IMG/VR virus record: IMGVR_UViG_3300022198_002558
Location: 1-21,063 of that record
Source: a virus
Length of the DNA: 21,063 nucleotides
Strand: one strand, 5' to 3'
Of the stretch, positions 5,637-21,063 are shown piece after piece (position 1 is the first letter of the stretch; each line of letters begins with the position of its first letter). Below the pieces are notes generated by a model, which saw only the letters and a program-made list of their open reading frames with translations, made no database searches and was not told the DNA's origin. A program made the position numbers and the translations under genes.

Positions 5637-8083
5637 TGGTAATGAATCCTAGACAGTTAGAATCTCAACAAATGAGTATGGATTTGGCTAATCAATTAGT
5701 AGCTCGTAACGTACCTATAGAAAACATAATTCAACAAACAGGTCTACCTAGAGCAACTGTTAATAATTTAGTAAACGCACAATTAAACATATCAAGACCA
5801 AGTATGCCTATGTCTAGCCCACAAGGTATAAACTCCCTTCAAGGTAATTTACAACCTGACGTAGCGGATGTAGTGCCAAACGTGGGTACGGATATAGCAG
5901 ACTACTTAACAGAAGAACTAGGTTTTGACCCTGAAGCTATGGCTAATCCTAATATGGATATAACGACAGAAGATTTAACTACAAAACAAAATTTAAACAT
6001 AGCTAACGCAGAAGTAATGCTTGAAGATCCTAGTCAAGTAGACATACTTTTAGCAAATCAAAAAGCATTATCTGGTCAAACAGATGAAGACGTAGTGGAT
6101 GTCTATAAAAGAGCGTTAGCTGAATATTCAGGTGTTGACTATAAAAGTTTAATACCGTTACCTGATAAAGATTTTGCTATTATGATGGCTGGTTTAAAAC
6201 TAGCAGAAGCAGGATCAAAAGGTGAAAAATGGGGTACAGCTTTAACTCAAGCTGTAACTACTGGGCTTACTCAATATGCTTCTGATAAACGTAATTACGA
6301 AAAACAAATTTTAGGTATAGACCTACAAACTGCACTTCAAACCGATAAAGCTATGAAAGACTTTATAGGTAAACAAATAGATTACGCTCAAAAATTAAAA
6401 AATGAAGAGCTTACAGGTGCACGTAAACAATATATGGTCACAGTGCCAGGAGCAGATGAAGGTACTGTTTTACAACTTAACTCTGTACAGGTAGGTAATC
6501 TACAAGCTGGTGGATATGATTTAATGGAGTATGATGTTTCTAAAATGGGGGCAATGAAAAATTATACTGTCACCTATAACGACGGTACAACTAACACAGG
6601 TGCATTAACAGAAGCACAAGCGTTAAAATATAATCAAGATCAAGCTAATGGTATTATAAAAAATATTGAAGTTGCTGGAGCTACAAGTTCCTCTGATGAC
6701 TTTGGTGTTTTGACTAGGGCTAAAAATGCACCGCCAGGCACTAATTTTACTTTTGACTATACAAGTAAAACAGGACTTACTGACCTTATAAATAATCCTG
6801 ATTTAGAAGTGATTCCATTAAAAGACGCTGGCGGTAGTTATGAAGTCATAGATAAACAAGACAATACTTTAAAAAGAATACCCGCTATTCAATACTTTGC
6901 TAACGCAGATCAATACAAACTTAAACGAGGTTTAACAGGTAGTATAGTTTCTCCTGATGGAACAACGATTAGTTTTGATAGTGATGGTTCTGGTTTTAGT
7001 AGTATGAACGCTAACTCAACAGGTAAGGCAGTAGAAAAAGTAGTTGAACAAGTAAGAAGTAGAAAATTTTTAACTAATGAAGTTAATCGTTTAGCAGGTA
7101 ATACTATTGATACTATAATGGGTATGGAGAACCCTGACTTAGCATTTAATAATTTAGCTGGTAGAGGTATAGATACTGTAAGAAGTGCTTTAACTAACTT
7201 GAAAGCTATAAGTAGTATTTTTTCTAAACCTGTAGTTAGAAATCAAGAAGGTGATATAGTAAAAGGTTTTACGTTTTCTTATCAAAATTCAGAAGGTGAA
7301 ATAGAAAAAGGTTTAAGTTTTAACCAATTTAGAAATAAAATTATACAATCAGAATTTTTTCAAAAGTTTGAAAAAACTCCTTTAGGTCAATTTATAATCA
7401 ATACTAATGATGATCGTGGAGTTGCCCAGTCGCAATTATTTACGTTAGCTTTAGTTGGTGCAGCAGCAGCAGGTGGTTCAGCCGACCTTGATTTAAGGGC
7501 TATATCAGATAAAGATATGGAATTATTCATGACTAGAGTTGGAGCACAGGCAAGTAACGCTAGTCAATTTATGGCGATAGTAAATCAATTTAGAGAAGAC
7601 ATTATTGAAACCGAATTGAATTACTTAAACTCTATGTTAGATATGCCTATAACTCAAATGAGAGAAGTTAAAAATCCAGAAACAGGCAAGTTTGAAGTTA
7701 AAAAAGTAGACTTGTTTGAAGAAAGAGGTATTTACAAACAACGTAATGAAAGAATAAAAGAATTAAACGCAGAGTTAGAAAAAATTAGAGCTATTCCAAG
7801 ATTGAATGTATTAGACGATGATTACGCTGTCAGCAATGTAGGTAGCCTTAAAGTAGCACTTGAACCTATGGGCGGAGTATCACCAACTGCACCTATAGCT
7901 ATAACAGTTCCTGGAATAGAAAATCCGTCATACGAGCAGGTAGTAGGGTATTTATTTTCATTGCCTGCTCTAGAAGCAAAAAATTATTTACTTGGTATAC
8001 AACGAAGTTACGGTAAACGTAACCCTAATGAGTTCAATTTATTATTGAATTTTTATAAACAAGCTAAAGGTAAGATGCAATAA
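5636..8083 (+). CDS. large virion-associated protein with N-terminal HTH-like segment
   Basis: This 815-residue protein has no domain I can name. Residues about 20-50 (QLVARNVPIENIIQQTGLPR, then ATVNNLVNAQ) read like a helix-turn-helix of the resolvase/Hin type, which is odd for a virion protein. Residues about 80-150 are acidic. The central part alternates beta-rich and helical stretches. A long, charged helical region lies around 655-720, with repeated Glu/Lys and an IKELNAELEKIR coiled-coil-like segment. There is a short Ala-rich hydrophobic patch (LALVGAAAAGGSADLDL) near 603-619. The start at 5636 is preferred over the ATG at 5642 because it forms the TAATG junction. Membership in the tail/ejection set is inferred from position. 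Confidence 0.55.
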   Translation: MVMNPRQLESQQMSMDLANQLVARNVPIENIIQQTGLPRATVNNLVNAQLNISRPSMPMSSPQGINSLQGNLQPDVADVVPNVGTDIADYLTEELGFDPEAMANPNMDITTEDLTTKQNLNIANAEVMLEDPSQVDILLANQKALSGQTDEDVVDVYKRALAEYSGVDYKSLIPLPDKDFAIMMAGLKLAEAGSKGEKWGTALTQAVTTGLTQYASDKRNYEKQILGIDLQTALQTDKAMKDFIGKQIDYAQKLKNEELTGARKQYMVTVPGADEGTVLQLNSVQVGNLQAGGYDLMEYDVSKMGAMKNYTVTYNDGTTNTGALTEAQALKYNQDQANGIIKNIEVAGATSSSDDFGVLTRAKNAPPGTNFTFDYTSKTGLTDLINNPDLEVIPLKDAGGSYEVIDKQDNTLKRIPAIQYFANADQYKLKRGLTGSIVSPDGTTISFDSDGSGFSSMNANSTGKAVEKVVEQVRSRKFLTNEVNRLAGNTIDTIMGMENPDLAFNNLAGRGIDTVRSALTNLKAISSIFSKPVVRNQEGDIVKGFTFSYQNSEGEIEKGLSFNQFRNKIIQSEFFQKFEKTPLGQFIINTNDDRGVAQSQLFTLALVGAAAAGGSADLDLRAISDKDMELFMTRVGAQASNASQFMAIVNQFREDIIETELNYLNSMLDMPITQMREVKNPETGKFEVKKVDLFEERGIYKQRNERIKELNAELEKIRAIPRLNVLDDDYAVSNVGSLKVALEPMGGVSPTAPIAITVPGIENPSYEQVVGYLFSLPALEAKNYLLGIQRSYGKRNPNEFNLLLNFYKQAKGKMQ

Positions 8084-10638
8084 TGGCACAGAACGACATA
8101 GTAGATATTGATCCAGTCCTTGAGGAATTAGAACAAATACAACTTAGTGAACTATTTCCTGAGAGACAAGCAATAGTCGATAGAACGTACAGTGGCAAAA
8201 GAATTGGCGACACTTTTAAAAATTTTCTAGTTGAAGAACTAGGTGTACCTTCTACTGCTCTTGATCTAGCTGTTGGTCCGCAAGGTGGATTTAGAGAAAG
8301 ATTTTATAGTCCTGGTCGAGGAATGGACCCACTAGGGCTACCCCCTATGTCCCCAATACAATTTAGAGGCTTTAGAGAATTACTTGAGCCTTCAGATGTC
8401 AGTTCAAGAGTAGCTAGAGAAAGTGGTATAAAAGAAAATCCACCGACGCAAATTAGTAGAATTGCTGCGTATTTACCTAAAGATAGTTATGATACAGGCG
8501 TTCAAAATTTAATACGTAATTATTACGGTGATAATTTTAACGTACCAGATAATTTTGATTATGAGTTTCAACGCGAACCTTTTAATAATCAAGTTATATA
8601 CCGTGACCCAATAGATAGCGAACTTAAATTTATAAATCCACCTGGCATAGATTGGGGTAATTTTACAGCTAGCATGGCACCTATAGCAGCAGAAATAACA
8701 GGAGTTTTAGTAGGAGCAGGAGCAGGTACTGTTGGGGCAGCTATCCCAGGAGTCAATCCAGCATCTGGTGCGATAGTAGGTGAAGTATTAGCCAGTTATT
8801 TATGGCGTTACAATAATTTAAACGAACTAGCTAATCAAGGATTACTTGACCCCAGTTACGACGAAACAAAAATAAATTACCAAGCTATGAAAGATGCAGG
8901 TATGACTGCTCTGTTTAGTATTGGTGGGGCAGGCGCATATAGGTTATTGACCAAAGCATTTGGCACAGGTGCTATTATTCCTGGACTAAAAGAAGAAGAG
9001 TTTGTTAAGGCTTTTGATGAGTTAAAAGCTGGTGCGGATACCCCTGCTAAACAAAAAGTGGTAGAAACTGCCACTGTTCCTGAAGTTATGGCTACACAAG
9101 ACGTACAACCGATTATTGCTGGTGGTCTACAAGCAGAAATAGCAAGAGCAGCAGGACGAGGAGATAAAAGGGCTGGTCAAGTAGTTGCTAAACTTGAAGC
9201 AGGAGAAACAGCTAAACTTGAAGCTATTGAAGAAACTCTTGAGGATGCAGCAGGAGTTATGCCCACTAAAACAGGACCGATACGTGAGCAGTTAGATGAA
9301 CTTCAACCTGAAATAGTGCTTCGTAAAGAAGAATTAGGTAAAGGTATGAAGTCTGAGTTTGATGATACTATTGATCCTAAAGTAATGGAAGTTGAAAAAA
9401 CTATACAAAATGCTAGAGGTACTTTTGATACTAATATTAATAACTTATTAGATGAAACTGTTGAACCTGAAGTAGCACTAAATGCTTTAAGAAAAACAGT
9501 TGCGGATATTTCAAAAGGTGAAAAAGCTCTTCCTGGAACTGGTAAAGGATTTAAAATTAAATTAAACAAATTACTGGCTAGTAATAAAACTGAGGAAGAA
9601 ATTTTAGATAAAGTTTTACAACTAGCTAAAACTAGTGATAGAGATTTTTTCAAGTCTTTTTTAAATGATTCTGAATATGTTGAAAGTGCTGTTTTATTAC
9701 GTAGAGCATTAAAAAATAAATATAAAAAATCAATGACTGCTGATGAGTCTGGTAATCTAATGCCTTTAACACCAGATCAACATCAAAGATTTATTACAGA
9801 TAATAAAAATATTATAGAAGATTTATTTGACCCTGCTGACGCTAAAATTTTTGAAGACGCAAGTCTTTTAGGTAGACAATTAAATAGAGAAGTAAGAAGT
9901 AACGAAAAAGCTATTGATGAGTTAAGAAGGTTACCTTGGAACTCTGAAGCGAATGCTAATCCAGAGTTTATTTTTAAAAATACATGGACAACTCAAAAAG
10001 AAGGCATAACTAAAACTAGAAAAGTTAAAGATATTATTGGAGACAACCAAGAACTAGCTGATGAGTATCGTTTAATGATTTTAAATGATATGCGTAAACA
10101 AACAGATAATTTTAAAGGCACTAAAATAGTAGACTATATTGACAACTATGGTGCAATGCTTGAACAATGGTATCCTAAAGATGTAGTTAAAAATTTAAGA
10201 GAATATTCAAATTTAATTAAAAATATGAAAACTAAACAAGGTGCAGTGTTTGATGATCCTGCTTTAATTGAGCTCATGAATAAAGCAGCAAGAGTTTACG
10301 TAGGATTTTTTACTGCTCCTGGTAGGGCATTAAGTGCTGCTAAACAACTTTTAGGTATGCATAAAAATACTAAGTTTGTTGATTTAATGCTCAACCCTCA
10401 AAAATATAGAGACGCAATAAAAATGCGTGAAATACTATTAGATCCTAAAGTTATGGATATAGTTAAAGGTTTAAGTAGAACTTATGGTAGAGAAACAAGT
10501 TTAGTTTCAGGTTTTGATGAACCAGAAACAGGTCAAATAGAAACAGCTGATCCTGTCTTACTCAATCAACCAATAGAAGAACTAGAAATTACTGAACTTA
10601 ATAGAGGCGGAGAACCGTTAATGGAGTTAAAATACTAA
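8083..10638 (+). CDS. large internal virion-like protein with hydrophobic segment
   Basis: This 851-residue protein begins with an acidic helix (residues 10-30). Residues 155-192 (REPFNNQVIYRDP, then INPPGIDWGNF) match a pattern I recall in large marine phage virion proteins. It is followed by a long hydrophobic Gly/Ala-rich segment (about 194-240) that could cross a membrane during DNA ejection. From about 340 to 620 the protein is highly charged, with Glu/Lys-rich helices and probable coiled coils. The C-terminal part contains RVYVGFFTAPGRALSAAKQL (about 740-759). The size and the single membrane-like stretch in an otherwise soluble protein resemble internal virion proteins that form a translocation channel. 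No lytic or nuclease motif is seen. Role inferred. Confidence 0.55.
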   Translation: MAQNDIVDIDPVLEELEQIQLSELFPERQAIVDRTYSGKRIGDTFKNFLVEELGVPSTALDLAVGPQGGFRERFYSPGRGMDPLGLPPMSPIQFRGFRELLEPSDVSSRVARESGIKENPPTQISRIAAYLPKDSYDTGVQNLIRNYYGDNFNVPDNFDYEFQREPFNNQVIYRDPIDSELKFINPPGIDWGNFTASMAPIAAEITGVLVGAGAGTVGAAIPGVNPASGAIVGEVLASYLWRYNNLNELANQGLLDPSYDETKINYQAMKDAGMTALFSIGGAGAYRLLTKAFGTGAIIPGLKEEEFVKAFDELKAGADTPAKQKVVETATVPEVMATQDVQPIIAGGLQAEIARAAGRGDKRAGQVVAKLEAGETAKLEAIEETLEDAAGVMPTKTGPIREQLDELQPEIVLRKEELGKGMKSEFDDTIDPKVMEVEKTIQNARGTFDTNINNLLDETVEPEVALNALRKTVADISKGEKALPGTGKGFKIKLNKLLASNKTEEEILDKVLQLAKTSDRDFFKSFLNDSEYVESAVLLRRALKNKYKKSMTADESGNLMPLTPDQHQRFITDNKNIIEDLFDPADAKIFEDASLLGRQLNREVRSNEKAIDELRRLPWNSEANANPEFIFKNTWTTQKEGITKTRKVKDIIGDNQELADEYRLMILNDMRKQTDNFKGTKIVDYIDNYGAMLEQWYPKDVVKNLREYSNLIKNMKTKQGAVFDDPALIELMNKAARVYVGFFTAPGRALSAAKQLLGMHKNTKFVDLMLNPQKYRDAIKMREILLDPKVMDIVKGLSRTYGRETSLVSGFDEPETGQIETADPVLLNQPIEELEITELNRGGEPLMELKY

Positions 10639-10639
10639 C

Positions 10640-11839
10640 GTGAGCGTATACGACAGAATAAATTTTGATTTAAACAGAATCCCTGAAAGGGAAGATTTGT
10701 TTATGCCTAGCAGACCAACTGTTACAGATGCACCTTTATCAAACGTGGCTCAGCCTCCTGTTTTTAATCAAAATTTTGCACCAGCTCAAATAGATTTAGG
10801 TGGTGGTTTAGGTAGTATTAGTGTACCTCAAATACCTTTAGAAACTATATTAGCTAATATCCCACAATTTAATATACCCACAGGAGTGGACTTAACAAAT
10901 CTTGATCCCACTATTTTCGGTTACAGACCACCAGCCGTGGAGCCAGAAGTAGAAACTGTTGAAACTGGTTTAGAAGACGCAGGTGTAAGTGACGAAGTAG
11001 TAGAAGATGTTGTAGACACTACATCTGATTATCCTTTTATTGACCCTGAAACAGGTGGACAATATGTTTTAATAGTAGGAGATCCTACTAATCCTGGACC
11101 AGGAGTCGTAGTTAGAGATCCTGAAACAGGTGAACTACCTCCAGGATTTAGCGATGAAGGAGTTAGCGGACCAGCAGGCACAGTTGTTGAAGGACCATAT
11201 GTTCCTCCACCTCCACCCTCAGTTTTTTCCGAACCTAGCCCAACAATCGTGGACGGTGGTATAACTACTGCTACACCTGTAGTTGACGATAGAAACTTAA
11301 TTACTCCTAATGTAGAAGTACCTGAAGGCAGTATGACTGGTTTAGGTAGCTACTTTACAGCTCCACAAATTAATCAAATAGTTGATCCTGGATATAGCAG
11401 ACCAGCCACCACAGATATGGATAGACTATTACAAATGCAAAGGCAAACTTACGGTAATTTTTTATATGCACCGACACCTGCCCCTGCTCCAAGCCCAAGC
11501 ACAGGCACAGCTCCATCAGAAGGTGACGTTGGTTCAGGGTACGTGGGAACTGATTACACTACATTCCCTACAGACACTACCCCAAGAGACTATATAGACC
11601 AACTATACAATGATCCTACAGGCATACAGTTTAATAATATTCAAAATCAAATGGGTATGAATCCTTATAGCTTTGATAACATAGGTAATTATTACACTGG
11701 TTATGACCCAGCACACAATATTCAAAACAATATACTAAAAAATATCTATAATAGAGGTTACGGTGTTATGGACTTTCCTGTATTTAGTGGTATTACTAGT
11801 TTAGTTCCTAGTGACGCTAGAGCTACTATCGGTTATTAA
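10640..11839 (+). CDS. Pro-rich protein of unknown function, end of late module
   Basis: This 399-residue protein starts with GTG, two bases after the previous stop codon. It is low in complexity and rich in Pro, Thr, Gly and Asp. An acidic stretch around residues 96-130 (EVETVETGLEDAGVSDEVV) is followed by two DPETG motifs and a PPPPPS run near residue 190. An alternating Pro/Ala/Ser stretch (TPAPAPSPST) lies near 278-288. The C-terminus is Asn/Tyr/Gly-rich. This composition fits an extended or disordered virion or scaffolding-like protein, but I recognise no family. It is the last gene of the plus-strand late block; its stop lies one base from the stop of the minus-strand helicase gene. Confidence 0.5.
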   Translation: MSVYDRINFDLNRIPEREDLFMPSRPTVTDAPLSNVAQPPVFNQNFAPAQIDLGGGLGSISVPQIPLETILANIPQFNIPTGVDLTNLDPTIFGYRPPAVEPEVETVETGLEDAGVSDEVVEDVVDTTSDYPFIDPETGGQYVLIVGDPTNPGPGVVVRDPETGELPPGFSDEGVSGPAGTVVEGPYVPPPPPSVFSEPSPTIVDGGITTATPVVDDRNLITPNVEVPEGSMTGLGSYFTAPQINQIVDPGYSRPATTDMDRLLQMQRQTYGNFLYAPTPAPAPSPSTGTAPSEGDVGSGYVGTDYTTFPTDTTPRDYIDQLYNDPTGIQFNNIQNQMGMNPYSFDNIGNYYTGYDPAHNIQNNILKNIYNRGYGVMDFPVFSGITSLVPSDARATIGY

Positions 11840-18432: not shown

Positions 18433-18942
18433 ATGAATATATTTTATACATACAACGACCCAGTACTTGCTGCTCAGTCTTTACCTGATAAGCTAGTAGT
18501 CAAAATGCCTTTAGAATCAGCTCAAATGCTTTGCACTACTCAACGCTACTATTTTCACAGTAGTTATTGTGACCAATTAGAAATTTATAAAACAGCCTAC
18601 TTAAACCACCCTTGTACTATATGGGCTAGGGAAAGTTTAGAAAACTATCAATGGCTTTATAAACACTTTGTAGCTTTATGTGACGAGTACACGTATCGTT
18701 ACGGTAAAGTACACGCTAGTGATACTAAACTAAGGCGTACCTTATCATACATACCTGCCTCTATGCCTAGTTTAGGACTTACTCCTATAGCTCAAGCTAT
18801 GCCTGATCAGTATAAAAACGCTGACCCTGTCGTGGCGTATCGTAACTACTTAATTAATGAAAAGCACTATGCTGCTTGGAATAAAACTAGACCTAAACCT
18901 AACTGGTGGAACACTACTTGGCAAATTGAGGACTGTGCATGA
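18433..18942 (+). CDS. conserved phage protein of unknown function
   Basis: This 169-residue protein starts with ATG behind a GGAGATAA-type site. Its most distinctive segments are LVVKMPLESAQMLCTT (21-36), NHPCTIWARES (58-68), NYQWLYKHFVALCDEYTYRYGK (71-92) and a C-terminal AMPDQYKNADPVVAYRNYLI stretch. I recall these segments from a widespread family in marine phages and phages of Proteobacteria, with no established function. My recollection is that relatives usually read DKHVVKM in the first motif; here it is DKLVVKM, which may be a lost conserved His. The pattern recalls small DNA-repair glycosylases in a general way but I cannot support that. Its stop overlaps the next ATG (ATGA), placing it in the putative modification operon. 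Confidence 0.6.
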   Translation: MNIFYTYNDPVLAAQSLPDKLVVKMPLESAQMLCTTQRYYFHSSYCDQLEIYKTAYLNHPCTIWARESLENYQWLYKHFVALCDEYTYRYGKVHASDTKLRRTLSYIPASMPSLGLTPIAQAMPDQYKNADPVVAYRNYLINEKHYAAWNKTRPKPNWWNTTWQIEDCA

Positions 18943-19784
18943 TAGAGGAAAATATACAAAAGTTTTTTAATTATCTAAACGAACGCCATATCATATACTT
19001 ACGCCGAAAAAACGGTGTAGCTTATCCGTGGACTAACGACGTTATACTCACTGAGTATAGTTTTTGTAATGTCTACCGTGAGTTGGATAAAGTTACTGAG
19101 TGGATAAGGGTCAACTGGCGTGAACCTTACGCTGACCATAGAAACTTGCCTTTTGCTATGGCAGTAGCTAGACAAATAAATTGGCCAGATACTCTAGAGG
19201 AAATAGGGTTTCCTGAAACTTGGGAACCTGAGAAGGTAAAAGCTATTATGCAAGCTAGAAAAGATAGAGGCGATAAGGTCTATACTGGTGCGTATATGTT
19301 AACTGGTACTTTAGGTGGTACAAAAATAGAACAAACTATAGATAAAATATTAACACCGTTATACAAAAATCATCCCCCTATGATAACTTGGTCACTAGAA
19401 GAAACTTGGAAAGGTTATTTACAAAAAGCAGGGTTTAGTGGTTTTATGGCTTATGAGGTAGTTACTGATTTACGCCACACTAGATATTTAAGTGAAGCTC
19501 AAGATATTATGACTTGGGCTAATCCTGGTCCTGGAGCACAGCGTGGGCTTAATAGAATAAAAGATAGAGAGTTAAATAAAACTATTAAGAAAGATAGACT
19601 TAATTTTGAGATGCAGGAATTATTAGAACTTTCACCTAATTATCTACAAGGACATATGGAACCTTTAGAAATGAGAGACATAGAACATTGTCTTTGTGAG
19701 TTTGATAAATACGAGAGGGTACGTTTAGGTCAAGGTAGACCACGTGCTAAATATAAACCAAAACCTGAGGAGGCTAACCTATGA
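18939..19784 (+). CDS. thymine-hypermodification helical-family protein (aGPT-Pplase/HMUDK_hel-like)
   Basis: This 281-residue, mostly helical protein resembles the DNA-glycosylase-like family found in phage thymine-hypermodification pathways, known in Pfam under names such as alpha-glutamyl/putrescinyl thymine pyrophosphorylase and 5-hmdU DNA kinase helical domain. The signature stretch is DVILTEYSFCNVYRELDKVT (34-53). ARQINWPDTL (77-86), YTGAYMLTG (115-123), GFSGFMAYEVVTDLRHT (165-181) and NPGPGAQRGLNRI (195-207) follow. Known relatives act on phosphorylated 5-hydroxymethyluracil in DNA. No P-loop kinase is fused here, and the C-terminus is a basic tail (RPRAKYKPKP). It is followed with ATGA coupling by a glycosyltransferase. 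The exact clade, and hence the reaction, is not resolved from sequence alone. Confidence 0.7.
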   Translation: MIEENIQKFFNYLNERHIIYLRRKNGVAYPWTNDVILTEYSFCNVYRELDKVTEWIRVNWREPYADHRNLPFAMAVARQINWPDTLEEIGFPETWEPEKVKAIMQARKDRGDKVYTGAYMLTGTLGGTKIEQTIDKILTPLYKNHPPMITWSLEETWKGYLQKAGFSGFMAYEVVTDLRHTRYLSEAQDIMTWANPGPGAQRGLNRIKDRELNKTIKKDRLNFEMQELLELSPNYLQGHMEPLEMRDIEHCLCEFDKYERVRLGQGRPRAKYKPKPEEANL

Positions 19785-20578
19785 AAATATTTATTCCAAC
19801 CAGAGGCAGGGCTGATGATCAAGTAACCTTGTCCCATTTTCCTGAGGACTTACGTAAACAAGTTACGCTAGTTGTCAATGAATATGAAAAAGATTTATAT
19901 CTTAAATATGATTGCCAAATTATGGCTTGTCCTGAGTCCGTTGTCTACGATATAGCTAGTAAACGTAAGTATATTTGTGAAAACGCAGGTGGTGGTAAAA
20001 TAGTTATGTTAGACGATGACTTACGTTTTTATATTCGTAAGGCTACTAACGACTGGCACCTTAGATACATAGAGCCTGATGAGTTTCACGCTTTGTTTGG
20101 TTTATTGGATAAATGGCTTGATGACTATGCCCACTGTGGTGTGAGTGCTAGGGAAGGTAACAATCGCGTTGAACATTTATCTGCTGAAACTACTAGGTAT
20201 ATGCGTGTACTAGCATACAATCTTGATATGTTTAAAGGTAAGGGTATTGAGTTATTCAGAACTAAAGTTATGAGCGACTTTGATATGAACTTACAATTAT
20301 TAAGTAAAGGACTACCTAATAAGGTGAGCTATTACTATGCCCAAGGTCATGGTAGTAGTAATGCTCCTGGTGGTTGTAGTGAGTGGCGTAACGTTCAAAT
20401 GCAGTCAGAGGGTGCAGAAATTTTAAAATCTCATCACCCTGATGTGGTTAAAGTGGTAGAAAGGGAAACTAAAACAGCTTGGGGTGCAGGAAAAGAAGGC
20501 ACGGTTATACGTAAAGACGTCAACATACAATGGAAAAAAGCATTAAAACTAGGAGCACAAAATGGCGAATTATTCTGA
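19781..20578 (+). CDS. GT-A glycosyltransferase resembling the TET-associated (TAGT) family
   Basis: This 265-residue protein has an N-terminal nucleotide-sugar fold, starting with IFIPTRGRAD (3-12) and LVVNEYE (30-36). A metal-binding DxD-type motif lies in KIVMLDDDLRF (73-83). VSAREGNNR (121-129) supplies a probable acceptor-side loop, DFDMNLQLLSKG (166-177) has the acidic base region, and NAPGGCSEWRN (194-204) ends the core. The order PTRGR, MLDDDL, S.R.GNN, DF...LQLL, GG matches my recollection of the family associated with TET/JBP oxygenases, which glycosylates hydroxymethylated bases in phage DNA. A classical cell-surface GT2 is an alternative but lacks this pattern. A strong GAGGAGG site precedes its ATG, and its start overlaps the previous stop (ATGA). 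Confidence 0.75.
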   Translation: MKIFIPTRGRADDQVTLSHFPEDLRKQVTLVVNEYEKDLYLKYDCQIMACPESVVYDIASKRKYICENAGGGKIVMLDDDLRFYIRKATNDWHLRYIEPDEFHALFGLLDKWLDDYAHCGVSAREGNNRVEHLSAETTRYMRVLAYNLDMFKGKGIELFRTKVMSDFDMNLQLLSKGLPNKVSYYYAQGHGSSNAPGGCSEWRNVQMQSEGAEILKSHHPDVVKVVERETKTAWGAGKEGTVIRKDVNIQWKKALKLGAQNGELF

Positions 20579-20783
20579 TATCTTAAATGGATATAAATCG
20601 GAACTTAAAGGTAAACGGGATTCTGTAACAGTTAATCTAAGTGTACTACTTGATAACCCCACCAGTATACCAGAACACGTAGATATTGTAGTAGAGGTAG
20701 ATAAACTAATAGAGAAGTTAGCTACCATACAAGAAAAAATAGAAATGGTAGACTTTGTTTTAAAATTCAAGGATAGTCAATGA
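20562..20783 (+). CDS. small protein of unknown function (73 aa)
   Basis: This 73-residue protein has an AGGAG ribosome binding site 7 bases before its ATG and overlaps the glycosyltransferase gene by 17 bases and the next gene by 4 (ATGA). Residues 3-20 and 45-66 look helical, the latter with regular hydrophobic spacing (VDKLIEKLATIQEKIEMVDFVL) that suggests a coiled coil or helical hairpin. It is well placed to be an accessory or adaptor of the adjacent enzymes, but no family is recognised. Both overlaps and the good ribosome binding site support it as a real gene. Confidence 0.6.
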   Translation: MANYSDILNGYKSELKGKRDSVTVNLSVLLDNPTSIPEHVDIVVEVDKLIEKLATIQEKIEMVDFVLKFKDSQ

Positions 20784-21063
20784 AAGTTATAAATTGTAGA
20801 AACGTTAACGATGGCTTTGTTAAAGCTATGGATCTTATTGCTCAAAATAAAGAGTACACTTTTCCTAGTAGGGCTGGCGAAGTTATAGAAGTACCTCAAC
20901 CTGTAGCAACAGTGTATGGTAATTCAAAAGAAAGAGTTTTGTTTGAAGACGCACGTAATGCTAATCCCTTTTTCCACTTAATAGAAAGTTTATGGATGTT
21001 AGGTGGCTGTAATGACCTAGAGTATATAAAGTATTACAATAAACGCATGAGTCAGTTTAGTGA
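20780..21063 (+). CDS. thymidylate synthase-like / dUMP hydroxymethylase-like protein, partial
   Basis: The window ends inside this gene, leaving 94 complete codons plus two bases. The visible N-terminal part (VINCRNVNDGFVKAM at 3-17, TVYGNSKERVLF at 44-55, ANPFFHLIESLWMLGGCNDL at 60-79, YYNKRMSQFS at 85-94) matches the phage branch of the thymidylate synthase fold, including the NPFFHLIE.LWML.G hallmark. Members either methylate dUMP to dTMP or hydroxymethylate dUMP or dCMP. The residues that separate these (the catalytic Cys region and the pyrimidine-specificity Asn/Asp) lie beyond the window, so the reaction is open. Its place after a hypermodification-family protein and a TAGT-like transferase makes dUMP hydroxymethylase an attractive inference. 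ATGA overlap with the 73-residue gene. Confidence 0.8.
   Translation, partial: MKVINCRNVNDGFVKAMDLIAQNKEYTFPSRAGEVIEVPQPVATVYGNSKERVLFEDARNANPFFHLIESLWMLGGCNDLEYIKYYNKRMSQFS

Follow-up and report, generated by a model that had tools for sequence, protein, structure and literature searches.

What does HMUDK_hel, a protein from a family named after a kinase, do next to a glycosyltransferase? This question is raised by the virus record IMGVR_UViG_3300022198_002558, all 21,063 bases of which were analyzed (hereafter the window). Its last genes encode an HMUDK_hel protein, a TAGT-family glycosyltransferase and a thymidylate synthase (TS)-like enzyme. The cassette is a real and recurring variant of phage thymidine hypermodification, one based on glycosylation; its product and the role of HMUDK_hel as a reader of the modified base are predictions. 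The explanation that we favor, with modest confidence, is that the cassette forms the glycosylation branch of this hypermodification, in which a TS-fold hydroxymethylase and TAGT work with HMUDK_hel as a base-exposing helper. The five co-oriented genes between 18433 and 21063 are:

18433–18942, plus strand: DenV-like protein of 169 amino acids (aa) with a pyrimidine-dimer-glycosylase match (PF03013, E 5.2e-9; phrog_624, E 9.3e-57)
18939–19784, plus strand: HMUDK_hel protein, 281 aa (PF18723, E 1.9e-45)
19781–20578, plus strand: TAGT-family glycosyltransferase, 265 aa (PF20691, E 2.6e-18; phrog_842, E 4e-45)
20562–20783, plus strand: 73-aa protein without assigned function, between the TAGT and TS-like genes (phrog_1811, E 1.8e-9)
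20780–21063, plus strand: TS-family gene, first 94 aa, truncated by the end of the window (phrog_5131, E 3.3e-30)

The coding regions overlap by 4 bases at 18939, 19781 and 20780, and by 17 bases at 20562. An earlier note, made from the letters of the window alone, had described three adjacent, translationally coupled genes. The positions and the coding overlaps are as it said, but the TAGT and TS-like genes do not adjoin directly, as the 73-aa gene lies between them. The window ends 1.3 kb past the HMUDK_hel gene, and its own genome is thus only partly visible.

Profile searches confirmed what the note had suspected of the first two proteins, namely a helical-family protein of thymine hypermodification and a TAGT-like enzyme. 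The product of 18939–19784 matches PF18723 with 155.9 bits (cut-off 25) over residues 6–263, and that of 19781–20578 matches PF20691 with 67.1 bits (cut-off 27.5). According to the available part of PMC9476957, HMUDK_hel is the family formerly called aGPT-Pplase1, and records of M6-like phages keep the older name. Indeed, the M6-like phage matches found here carry that name on the HMUDK_hel gene. In TAGT, D78-D79-D80 is invariant in all 17 aligned members, and D166 is also conserved. Searches by sequence for solved relatives returned one unconvincing hit for TAGT (E 0.0087) and none for HMUDK_hel; NCBIfam has no model for either family, and PADLOC has none.

Since the window holds only 94 aa of the TS-like protein, for which Pfam gave no significant match, the gene was judged from full-length relatives (338 aa in L004). 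Seven relatives from glycosyltransferase-type loci (L004, L008, L023, L041, L066, L068 and L079) were aligned with E. coli ThyA, a T-even-type deoxycytidine monophosphate (dCMP) hydroxymethylase and SPO1 gp29, which is a deoxyuridine monophosphate (dUMP) hydroxymethylase according to its record. Two ThyA columns are diagnostic: N177, which we take to set the choice between uracil and cytosine, and W80, which presumably guards against hydroxymethylation. The N177 column holds Asn in all seven relatives, in ThyA and in SPO1 gp29, and Asp in the dCMP hydroxymethylase. At W80 the seven relatives have a gap, W83 is replaced by Phe or Tyr, and the catalytic Cys is followed by Asn; in SPO1 gp29 these places hold a gap, Phe and Asn. 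The window copy covers the W80 column, where it also has a gap, and ends before N177. Among solved structures, the best relatives are cytidine monophosphate hydroxymethylases (E 1.8e-26); the best thymidylate synthase follows at E 4.9e-14, and others are weaker. From the diagnostic columns we propose that the TS-like gene encodes a dUMP 5-hydroxymethylase. The agreement with the SPO1 enzyme supports the idea, already put forward in the earlier note, that a TS-fold enzyme supplies the hydroxymethyl base before polymerization and TAGT acts on the product. TAGT is likewise proposed, on its conserved residues and family, to be a 5-hydroxymethyldeoxyuridine (5-hmdU) DNA glycosyltransferase. An ordinary GT2 or surface-glycan enzyme was considered and was not our first choice, as TAGT keeps company with a dUMP-type hydroxymethylase.

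The arrangement recurs. One search with the HMUDK_hel protein of the window returned 75 viral loci, of which 67 contain both TAGT and a TS-like gene; in 65 of the 67, a match to DNA polymerase I follows downstream. The other eight comprise two kinase-type loci, four with a GT-B-type gene and two with too little flanking sequence. Among these 75 loci, the cassette arrangement is neither chance nor rare.

Whole records were then searched for 50 of the 89 loci L002–L090 and typed by neighborhood as kinase-type (9), glycosyltransferase-type (39) or neither (2). The 39 consist of 36 records with HMUDK_hel and TAGT, two with HMUDK_hel and a GT-B-type gene, and one with TAGT and no HMUDK_hel. The 5-hmdU DNA kinase profile PF18748 matched seven of the nine kinase-type records (four over and three under the cut-off) and none of the 39; it missed the kinases of phages Koji and Montesquieu, so that this profile alone is no proof of absence. 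In particular, no P-loop kinase partner was seen with PF18748 in any of the 36 records with HMUDK_hel and TAGT. The ADDT profile PF18724 behaved similarly, matching seven of the nine kinase-type records and phiW-14 and none of the 39, although it too missed a gene, one annotated as clade 2 of the ADDT family in Montesquieu. Conversely, the TAGT profile matched none of 17 kinase-type records, not phiW-14, and all four known TAGT-type records. The TAGT family takes its name from an association with TET/JBP oxygenases; the Tet_JBP profile found none of these in the 50 records, and the control genomes were equally silent.

Four more searches widened the set to a sample of HMUDK_hel relatives (in two of them, the best 80 of 565 and the best 80 of 218), in which 278 loci that include 150 aa or more of HMUDK_hel formed 152 groups at 97% identity. 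Within 8 kb, 36 groups have a P-loop kinase, 100 have a glycosyltransferase of any kind, none has both and 16 have neither; classes C and K3 were defined post hoc on partnerless loci, which lowered the last figure from 24. The 100 glycosyltransferase loci divide into TAGT (77), GT-B-type (14; nine of class B1 and five of class B2), TAGT plus B2 (2) and class C (7). When at least 3.5 kb was required on both sides, the picture was TAGT 63, kinase 24, GT-B-type 12, TAGT plus B2 one, class C four and none 10. A Walker A motif is present in 34 of the 36 kinase loci, the remaining two genes ending at a contig edge. The TS-like gene accompanies both partners (100/100 glycosyltransferase and 34/36 kinase loci); ADDT lies within 8 kb in 18 of the 36 kinase loci and in none of the 100. 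The same exclusion was seen in a bacterial and archaeal set (80 loci, L300–L379, of 170 relatives): 14 of these have a kinase, glycosyltransferase or polymerase profile match, with a kinase in ten, a glycosyltransferase in four and both in none. A glycosyltransferase next to this helical protein, which the earlier note had considered an unusual combination, is therefore the commonest arrangement in our non-redundant sample (TAGT in 79 of 152 loci, two of them also with GT-B), and the co-location was reported in 2022 (PMC9599517, available part).

We also looked for a hidden kinase in two contigs longer than 62 kb, one of 45 kb and the complete genome of Brevibacterium phage LuckyBarnes (NC_047851). 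Three custom kinase profiles gave no match in these four genomes. A Walker A scan, taking the longest of overlapping open reading frames (ORFs), found no protein of 120–260 aa, the size range of the kinases; its matches were two UvrD-like helicases (499 aa), an 804-aa protein annotated as helicase/primase and proteins of 103 (two), 453, 523, 537 and 1,043 aa. LuckyBarnes is an isolate that resembles the window in having consecutive genes for TS, two TAGT proteins and HMUDK_hel. Its whole genome gave neither a kinase profile match nor a small Walker A protein. It differs from the window in its host, in gene order and in an HMUDK_hel that is only 29% identical.

The glycosyltransferases in this slot are of more than one kind. 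TAGT has a GT-A fold, as published for T6 (PMC13216743, available part). Class C has no convincing Pfam match, and its model (pLDDT 79) matches GT-B glycosyltransferases, with T4 beta-glucosyltransferase as the top Foldseek match (E 2e-7) and a VIA-align Z of 17.6 that is tied with others. Class B1 gave weak Pfam matches, below the cut-off, to glycosyltransferase group 1. Class B2 has no Pfam match and is labeled a glycosyltransferase because its profile matches the B1 profile (hhalign probability 95%, E 2.6e-8). Thus, at least two glycosyltransferase folds, GT-A and GT-B, share the slot.

To follow these partners over the history of the family, a tree was built from 115 HMUDK_hel proteins, each 240 aa or longer, after merging those that fall in one group of 85% identity and carry one label; 104 of its rows are labeled. 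Nineteen changes between kinase and glycosyltransferase are needed on this tree. The number is still 19 without the five loci known by class B2 only and is 17 for kinase versus TAGT alone, and setting the kinase label against all other rows gives 20 changes, of which starred branches force at least 11. These counts come from a quick tree in which 44 of 112 inner branches have less than 80% support, which weighs against repeated exchange, and they take gains and losses together. Exchange is also visible between close relatives. The HMUDK_hel of L231 (ADDT and kinase) is 73–74% identical to those of L199 and L214 (B2), and that of Microbacterium phage Koji (kinase) is 63–64% identical to those of Nebulous and Zayuliv (TAGT). 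The partner label is more clustered on the tree than in shuffles; partners are therefore also inherited. This comparison shows that the neighboring enzyme has been exchanged many times around HMUDK_hel, which would play one shared biochemical role with kinase and glycosyltransferase.

What could this role be? The AlphaFold2 model of the HMUDK_hel protein is of high quality (mean pLDDT 94.6, pTM 0.90). Foldseek found no match to it in the PDB at E 0.001 or better. With VIA-align, the top match is PUGT (PaMx11 gp46, the 5-phosphomethyldeoxyuridine glycinyltransferase; PDB 8z2n, chain B), at Z 11.7 and a root-mean-square deviation of 3.7 over 216 aligned residues. It is followed mostly by helix-hairpin-helix DNA glycosylases at Z 10.5 or less (3knt_A, Z 10.5). 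The call of a helix-hairpin-helix DNA-glycosylase fold, which we make as a prediction, rests on the Z of 11.7 and the coherent list of glycosylases, and mostly helical models can score Z 13–14 through a common arrangement. The DNA-glycosylase fold flips bases. PUGT itself, the closest solved fold, is an amino-acid transferase acting on a phosphorylated base and is only 10% identical; no ADDT-family match occurs in the glycosyltransferase-type phages. In a viral structure library, the nearest named entries are further HMUDK_hel proteins and, from SP10, the 637-aa "5-hmdU DNA kinase". According to the models, the SP10 protein contains the HMUDK_hel fold, and its length and name suggest that the remainder is the kinase part. 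Across 46 aligned HMUDK_hel members, kinase-type and glycosyltransferase-type alike, 14 residues are invariant. With a base-flipping fold, residues conserved regardless of partner type, and a union with a kinase in SP10, HMUDK_hel fits a subunit that exposes 5-hmdU.

In the pathway that we propose, the TS-fold enzyme would convert dUMP to 5-hydroxymethyl-dUMP, which would then be phosphorylated and polymerized into phage DNA. HMUDK_hel would bind 5-hmdU in duplex DNA and expose the base to the transferring enzyme, as its predicted fold suggests. TAGT would glycosylate the hydroxymethyl group in the DNA, the simplest sugar donor being a host nucleotide sugar, to yield a predicted base-J-like glycosyl-5-hmdU. 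The same HMUDK_hel protein would serve a P-loop kinase in M6-like phages and a glycosyltransferase here. Glucosylated 5-hydroxymethyluracil (5-hmU) would be the same base as kinetoplastid base J, or an isomer. Base J starts from thymine in DNA, which is oxidized by JBP enzymes; in the cassette the hydroxymethyl group would come from a TS-fold enzyme and not from JBP. For T4 beta-glucosyltransferase, 5-hmU in a duplex is a substrate only in a mispair with G (PMC4111573, available part), and a helper exposing A-paired 5-hmdU would therefore make sense. A wider reading goes further, and we put it forward only tentatively: HMUDK_hel would be a general 5-hmdU reader rather than a part of the kinase, a reused glycosylase fold that serves as a base-exposing subunit and was joined time and again with transferring enzymes of unrelated kinds (P-loop kinases, GT-A TAGT, T4 beta-glucosyltransferase-like and other GT-B enzymes). 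The glycosyltransferase form would then be a phage route to base-J-like DNA without TET/JBP.

The thymidine hypermodification (5-NedU) of Pseudomonas phage M6 and its relatives provides a close comparison. M6 shares with relatives of the cassette the gene order HMUDK_hel (gp55), TS-like gene (gp58), HD protein, PolA. Unlike the cassette, it has a P-loop kinase (gp54, PF18748), ADDT (gp51, PF18724) and genes of pyridoxal-phosphate (PLP) type and radical S-adenosylmethionine (SAM) type, and no TAGT. Here TAGT occupies the place held in M6 by the ADDT, PLP-type, radical-SAM-type and P-loop kinase genes. Of the genes that mark M6/ViI-type systems, HMUDK_hel and the predicted dUMP hydroxymethylase were found, and the PF18748 kinase and PF18724 were matched in none of the 39 glycosyltransferase-type records.

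The alternative that survives best, though we consider it unlikely, is that HMUDK_hel acts alone and belongs with the TS-like gene, for example as a 5-hmdU-specific glycosylase or binding protein directed against unglycosylated 5-hmdU in host or rival DNA, and that the glycosyltransferase works by itself. A glycosylase-like fold would suit such a function, and a number of observations weigh for it or against a helper. The complete circular genome MW202897 has a TAGT 43% identical to that of the window, a hydroxymethylase and an HD gene, and no PF18723 match; the helper is therefore not always needed. Nine HMUDK_hel records without an adjoining partner, seven of them longer than 100 kb, gave no match to PF00303, PF20691 or PF18748 in the whole record (ThyX was not searched). 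No kinase, glycosyltransferase or phage-polymerase profile match was found in 66 of the 80 bacterial and archaeal loci; a TS-like gene is present in 36 of these 66, and 48 of them lack a small P-loop protein within 4 kb. In Hyphomicrobium, the HMUDK_hel gene lies directly before a TS-like gene and overlaps it, with no recognizable transferring enzyme or other pathway gene alongside. Nor was HMUDK_hel fused to another pathway enzyme, including a glycosyltransferase, in the fetched loci. HMUDK_hel thus occurs without either partner, in large phage contigs and in bacteria, and possibly has a role of its own. Finally, a defense paper validates a 5-hydroxymethyluracil kinase domain, which may or may not be HMUDK_hel, and a TS domain, perhaps in separate systems, and names a deoxynucleoside monophosphate (dNMP) kinase domain (PMC13092281, available part); the bacterial HMUDK_hel loci may relate to these TS, dNMP kinase and 5-hmdU kinase domains. 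Three other results weigh against a solitary role: in SP10 a kinase protein includes HMUDK_hel, HMUDK_hel overlaps TAGT or sits within 30 bases of it in 46 of the 77 TAGT-type loci (starts taken from the longest ORFs), and a transferring enzyme lies within 8 kb in 136 of the 152 phage loci.

Some partnerless loci are related to each other. L163, L194, L205, L224, L232 and L236 form a supported HMUDK_hel group (98% in the Shimodaira–Hasegawa-like approximate likelihood ratio test) without an adjoining partner, four of them on contigs of 220–460 kb; the five contigs other than that of L232 were searched whole and gave no PF00303, PF20691 or PF18748 match. The HMUDK_hel relatives in L300–L379 come from actinobacteria, cyanobacteria, Clostridia and Hyphomicrobium, among others, and several of the 66 loci without a kinase, glycosyltransferase or polymerase match have a P-loop gene resembling deoxythymidine monophosphate kinase. 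Most HMUDK_hel proteins of this set are less than 30% identical to that of the window; those of Hyphomicrobium reach 49–50%.

It is less probable still that HMUDK_hel primes 5-hmdU, e.g., with phosphate, and that TAGT adds its sugar to the primed group, so that the product is a sugar phosphodiester and not a plain glycoside. The word kinase in the family name would fit, and glycosyltransferases that use phosphate acceptors exist. The DNA of SP-15 does contain a phosphate-linked sugar (PMC5977210, available part). A priming activity is at odds with the glycosylase-like fold, with the 5-hmdU DNA kinase family PF18748 being a separate P-loop protein in M6, and with HMUDK_hel domains lacking a Walker A pattern in 277 of 278 cases, the sole exception (L086) being possibly due to chance.

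We see little chance that TAGT has nothing to do with thymine and modifies hydroxymethylcytosine (hmC) or a surface glycan from a coincidental position. T-even phages also have a TAGT-family enzyme beside a TS-fold hydroxymethylase, and their TAGT attaches another glucose, the second, to glucosyl-hmC (PMC13216743, available part; the same source counts solitary TAGT genes in 288 of 753 phage genomes). Their hydroxymethylase, however, is of the dCMP type and the TAGT identity is only about 25%, whereas the TS-like partner here is of the predicted dUMP type, TAGT and TS-like genes occur together in 67 of 75 loci, and the slot is shared by glycosyltransferases of two or more folds. The amino-acid-linked base that the earlier note had also envisaged, or a mixed base as in M6, ViI and phiW-14, is very improbable: HMUDK_hel and TS-like genes are common to M6, but the ADDT and kinase profiles matched none of the 39 glycosyltransferase-type whole records (PF18724 missed one Montesquieu gene), and the 281-aa protein is HMUDK_hel and does not belong to the amino acid transferase family.

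Several other genes were found near relatives of the cassette. A UDP-glucose/GDP-mannose dehydrogenase gene occurs in two of the 50 records (L093:19023–19859 on contig G028, and contig G001:4789–5070), both near relatives of the window, and could point to a uronic acid being the sugar. Between HMUDK_hel and TAGT, L048 has an FkbM-type methyltransferase gene (7898–8584; PF05050, E 1.5e-11) that could cap the sugar, and between HMUDK_hel and the class C glycosyltransferase, L193 has a sulfotransferase-like gene (10810–11592; PF13469, E 2.7e-4, below the cut-off). Radical-SAM-like proteins, recognized by eye from a Cys motif, lie near HMUDK_hel and TS-like genes in two glycosyltransferase-type loci (L068:8315–9328 and L227:7533–8531). 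Two 2-oxoglutarate-Fe(II) oxygenase genes are found in L093 on contig G028 (12032–12616 and 12879–13586; PF13532 and PF13640), without a Tet_JBP match.

In the window, profile searches placed a UvrD-like helicase and a primase upstream of the cassette. A homologue of the DenV-like protein lies upstream in 54 of the 67 TAGT-type relatives, some of which end there; the gene is a conserved upstream neighbor, and any role in the pathway is putative. T4 DenV uses the Thr that follows its Met. In the protein encoded at 18433–18942 the residue after Met is not Thr, and glycosylase activity is doubtful. The 73-aa protein has a homologue in 18 of the 67 relatives. At 2185–2649 the window encodes a 154-aa protein with Cys pairs that, by eye only, is HNH endonuclease-like. 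The stabilization-type protein of the window is 41% identical to that of phage DSL-LC04 and 31–35% to those of HTVC023P-type pelagiphages; its relationship to members of the latter group is remote. No HMUDK_hel match was found in DSL-LC04, where the helicase directly adjoins the DNA polymerase.

The co-location of HMUDK_hel, TAGT and TS-like genes is already in print: HTVC023P-type pelagiphages have the same gene set, which was noted in 2022 as possibly broadening the M6-type system (PMC9599517). In its available parts, that account draws no comparison with a 5-hmdU kinase and suggests neither a role nor a fold for the protein under its older name, aG/PT-PPlase1. Mutual exclusion of kinase and glycosyltransferase, and their repeated exchange around a constant HMUDK_hel, were not found in the literature searched, although key papers may contain them.

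If the wider reading is true, HMUDK_hel, a family named after a kinase, would be a reusable reader of a modified base. Thymine hypermodification would be modular, with one hydroxymethylase and one reader, and the plug-in enzyme would decide between phosphate plus amino acid and sugar. The cultured Microbacterium phages Koji (kinase) and Nebulous and Zayuliv (TAGT) make this prediction directly testable. Base-J-like DNA would then be common in environmental phages and made without TET/JBP.

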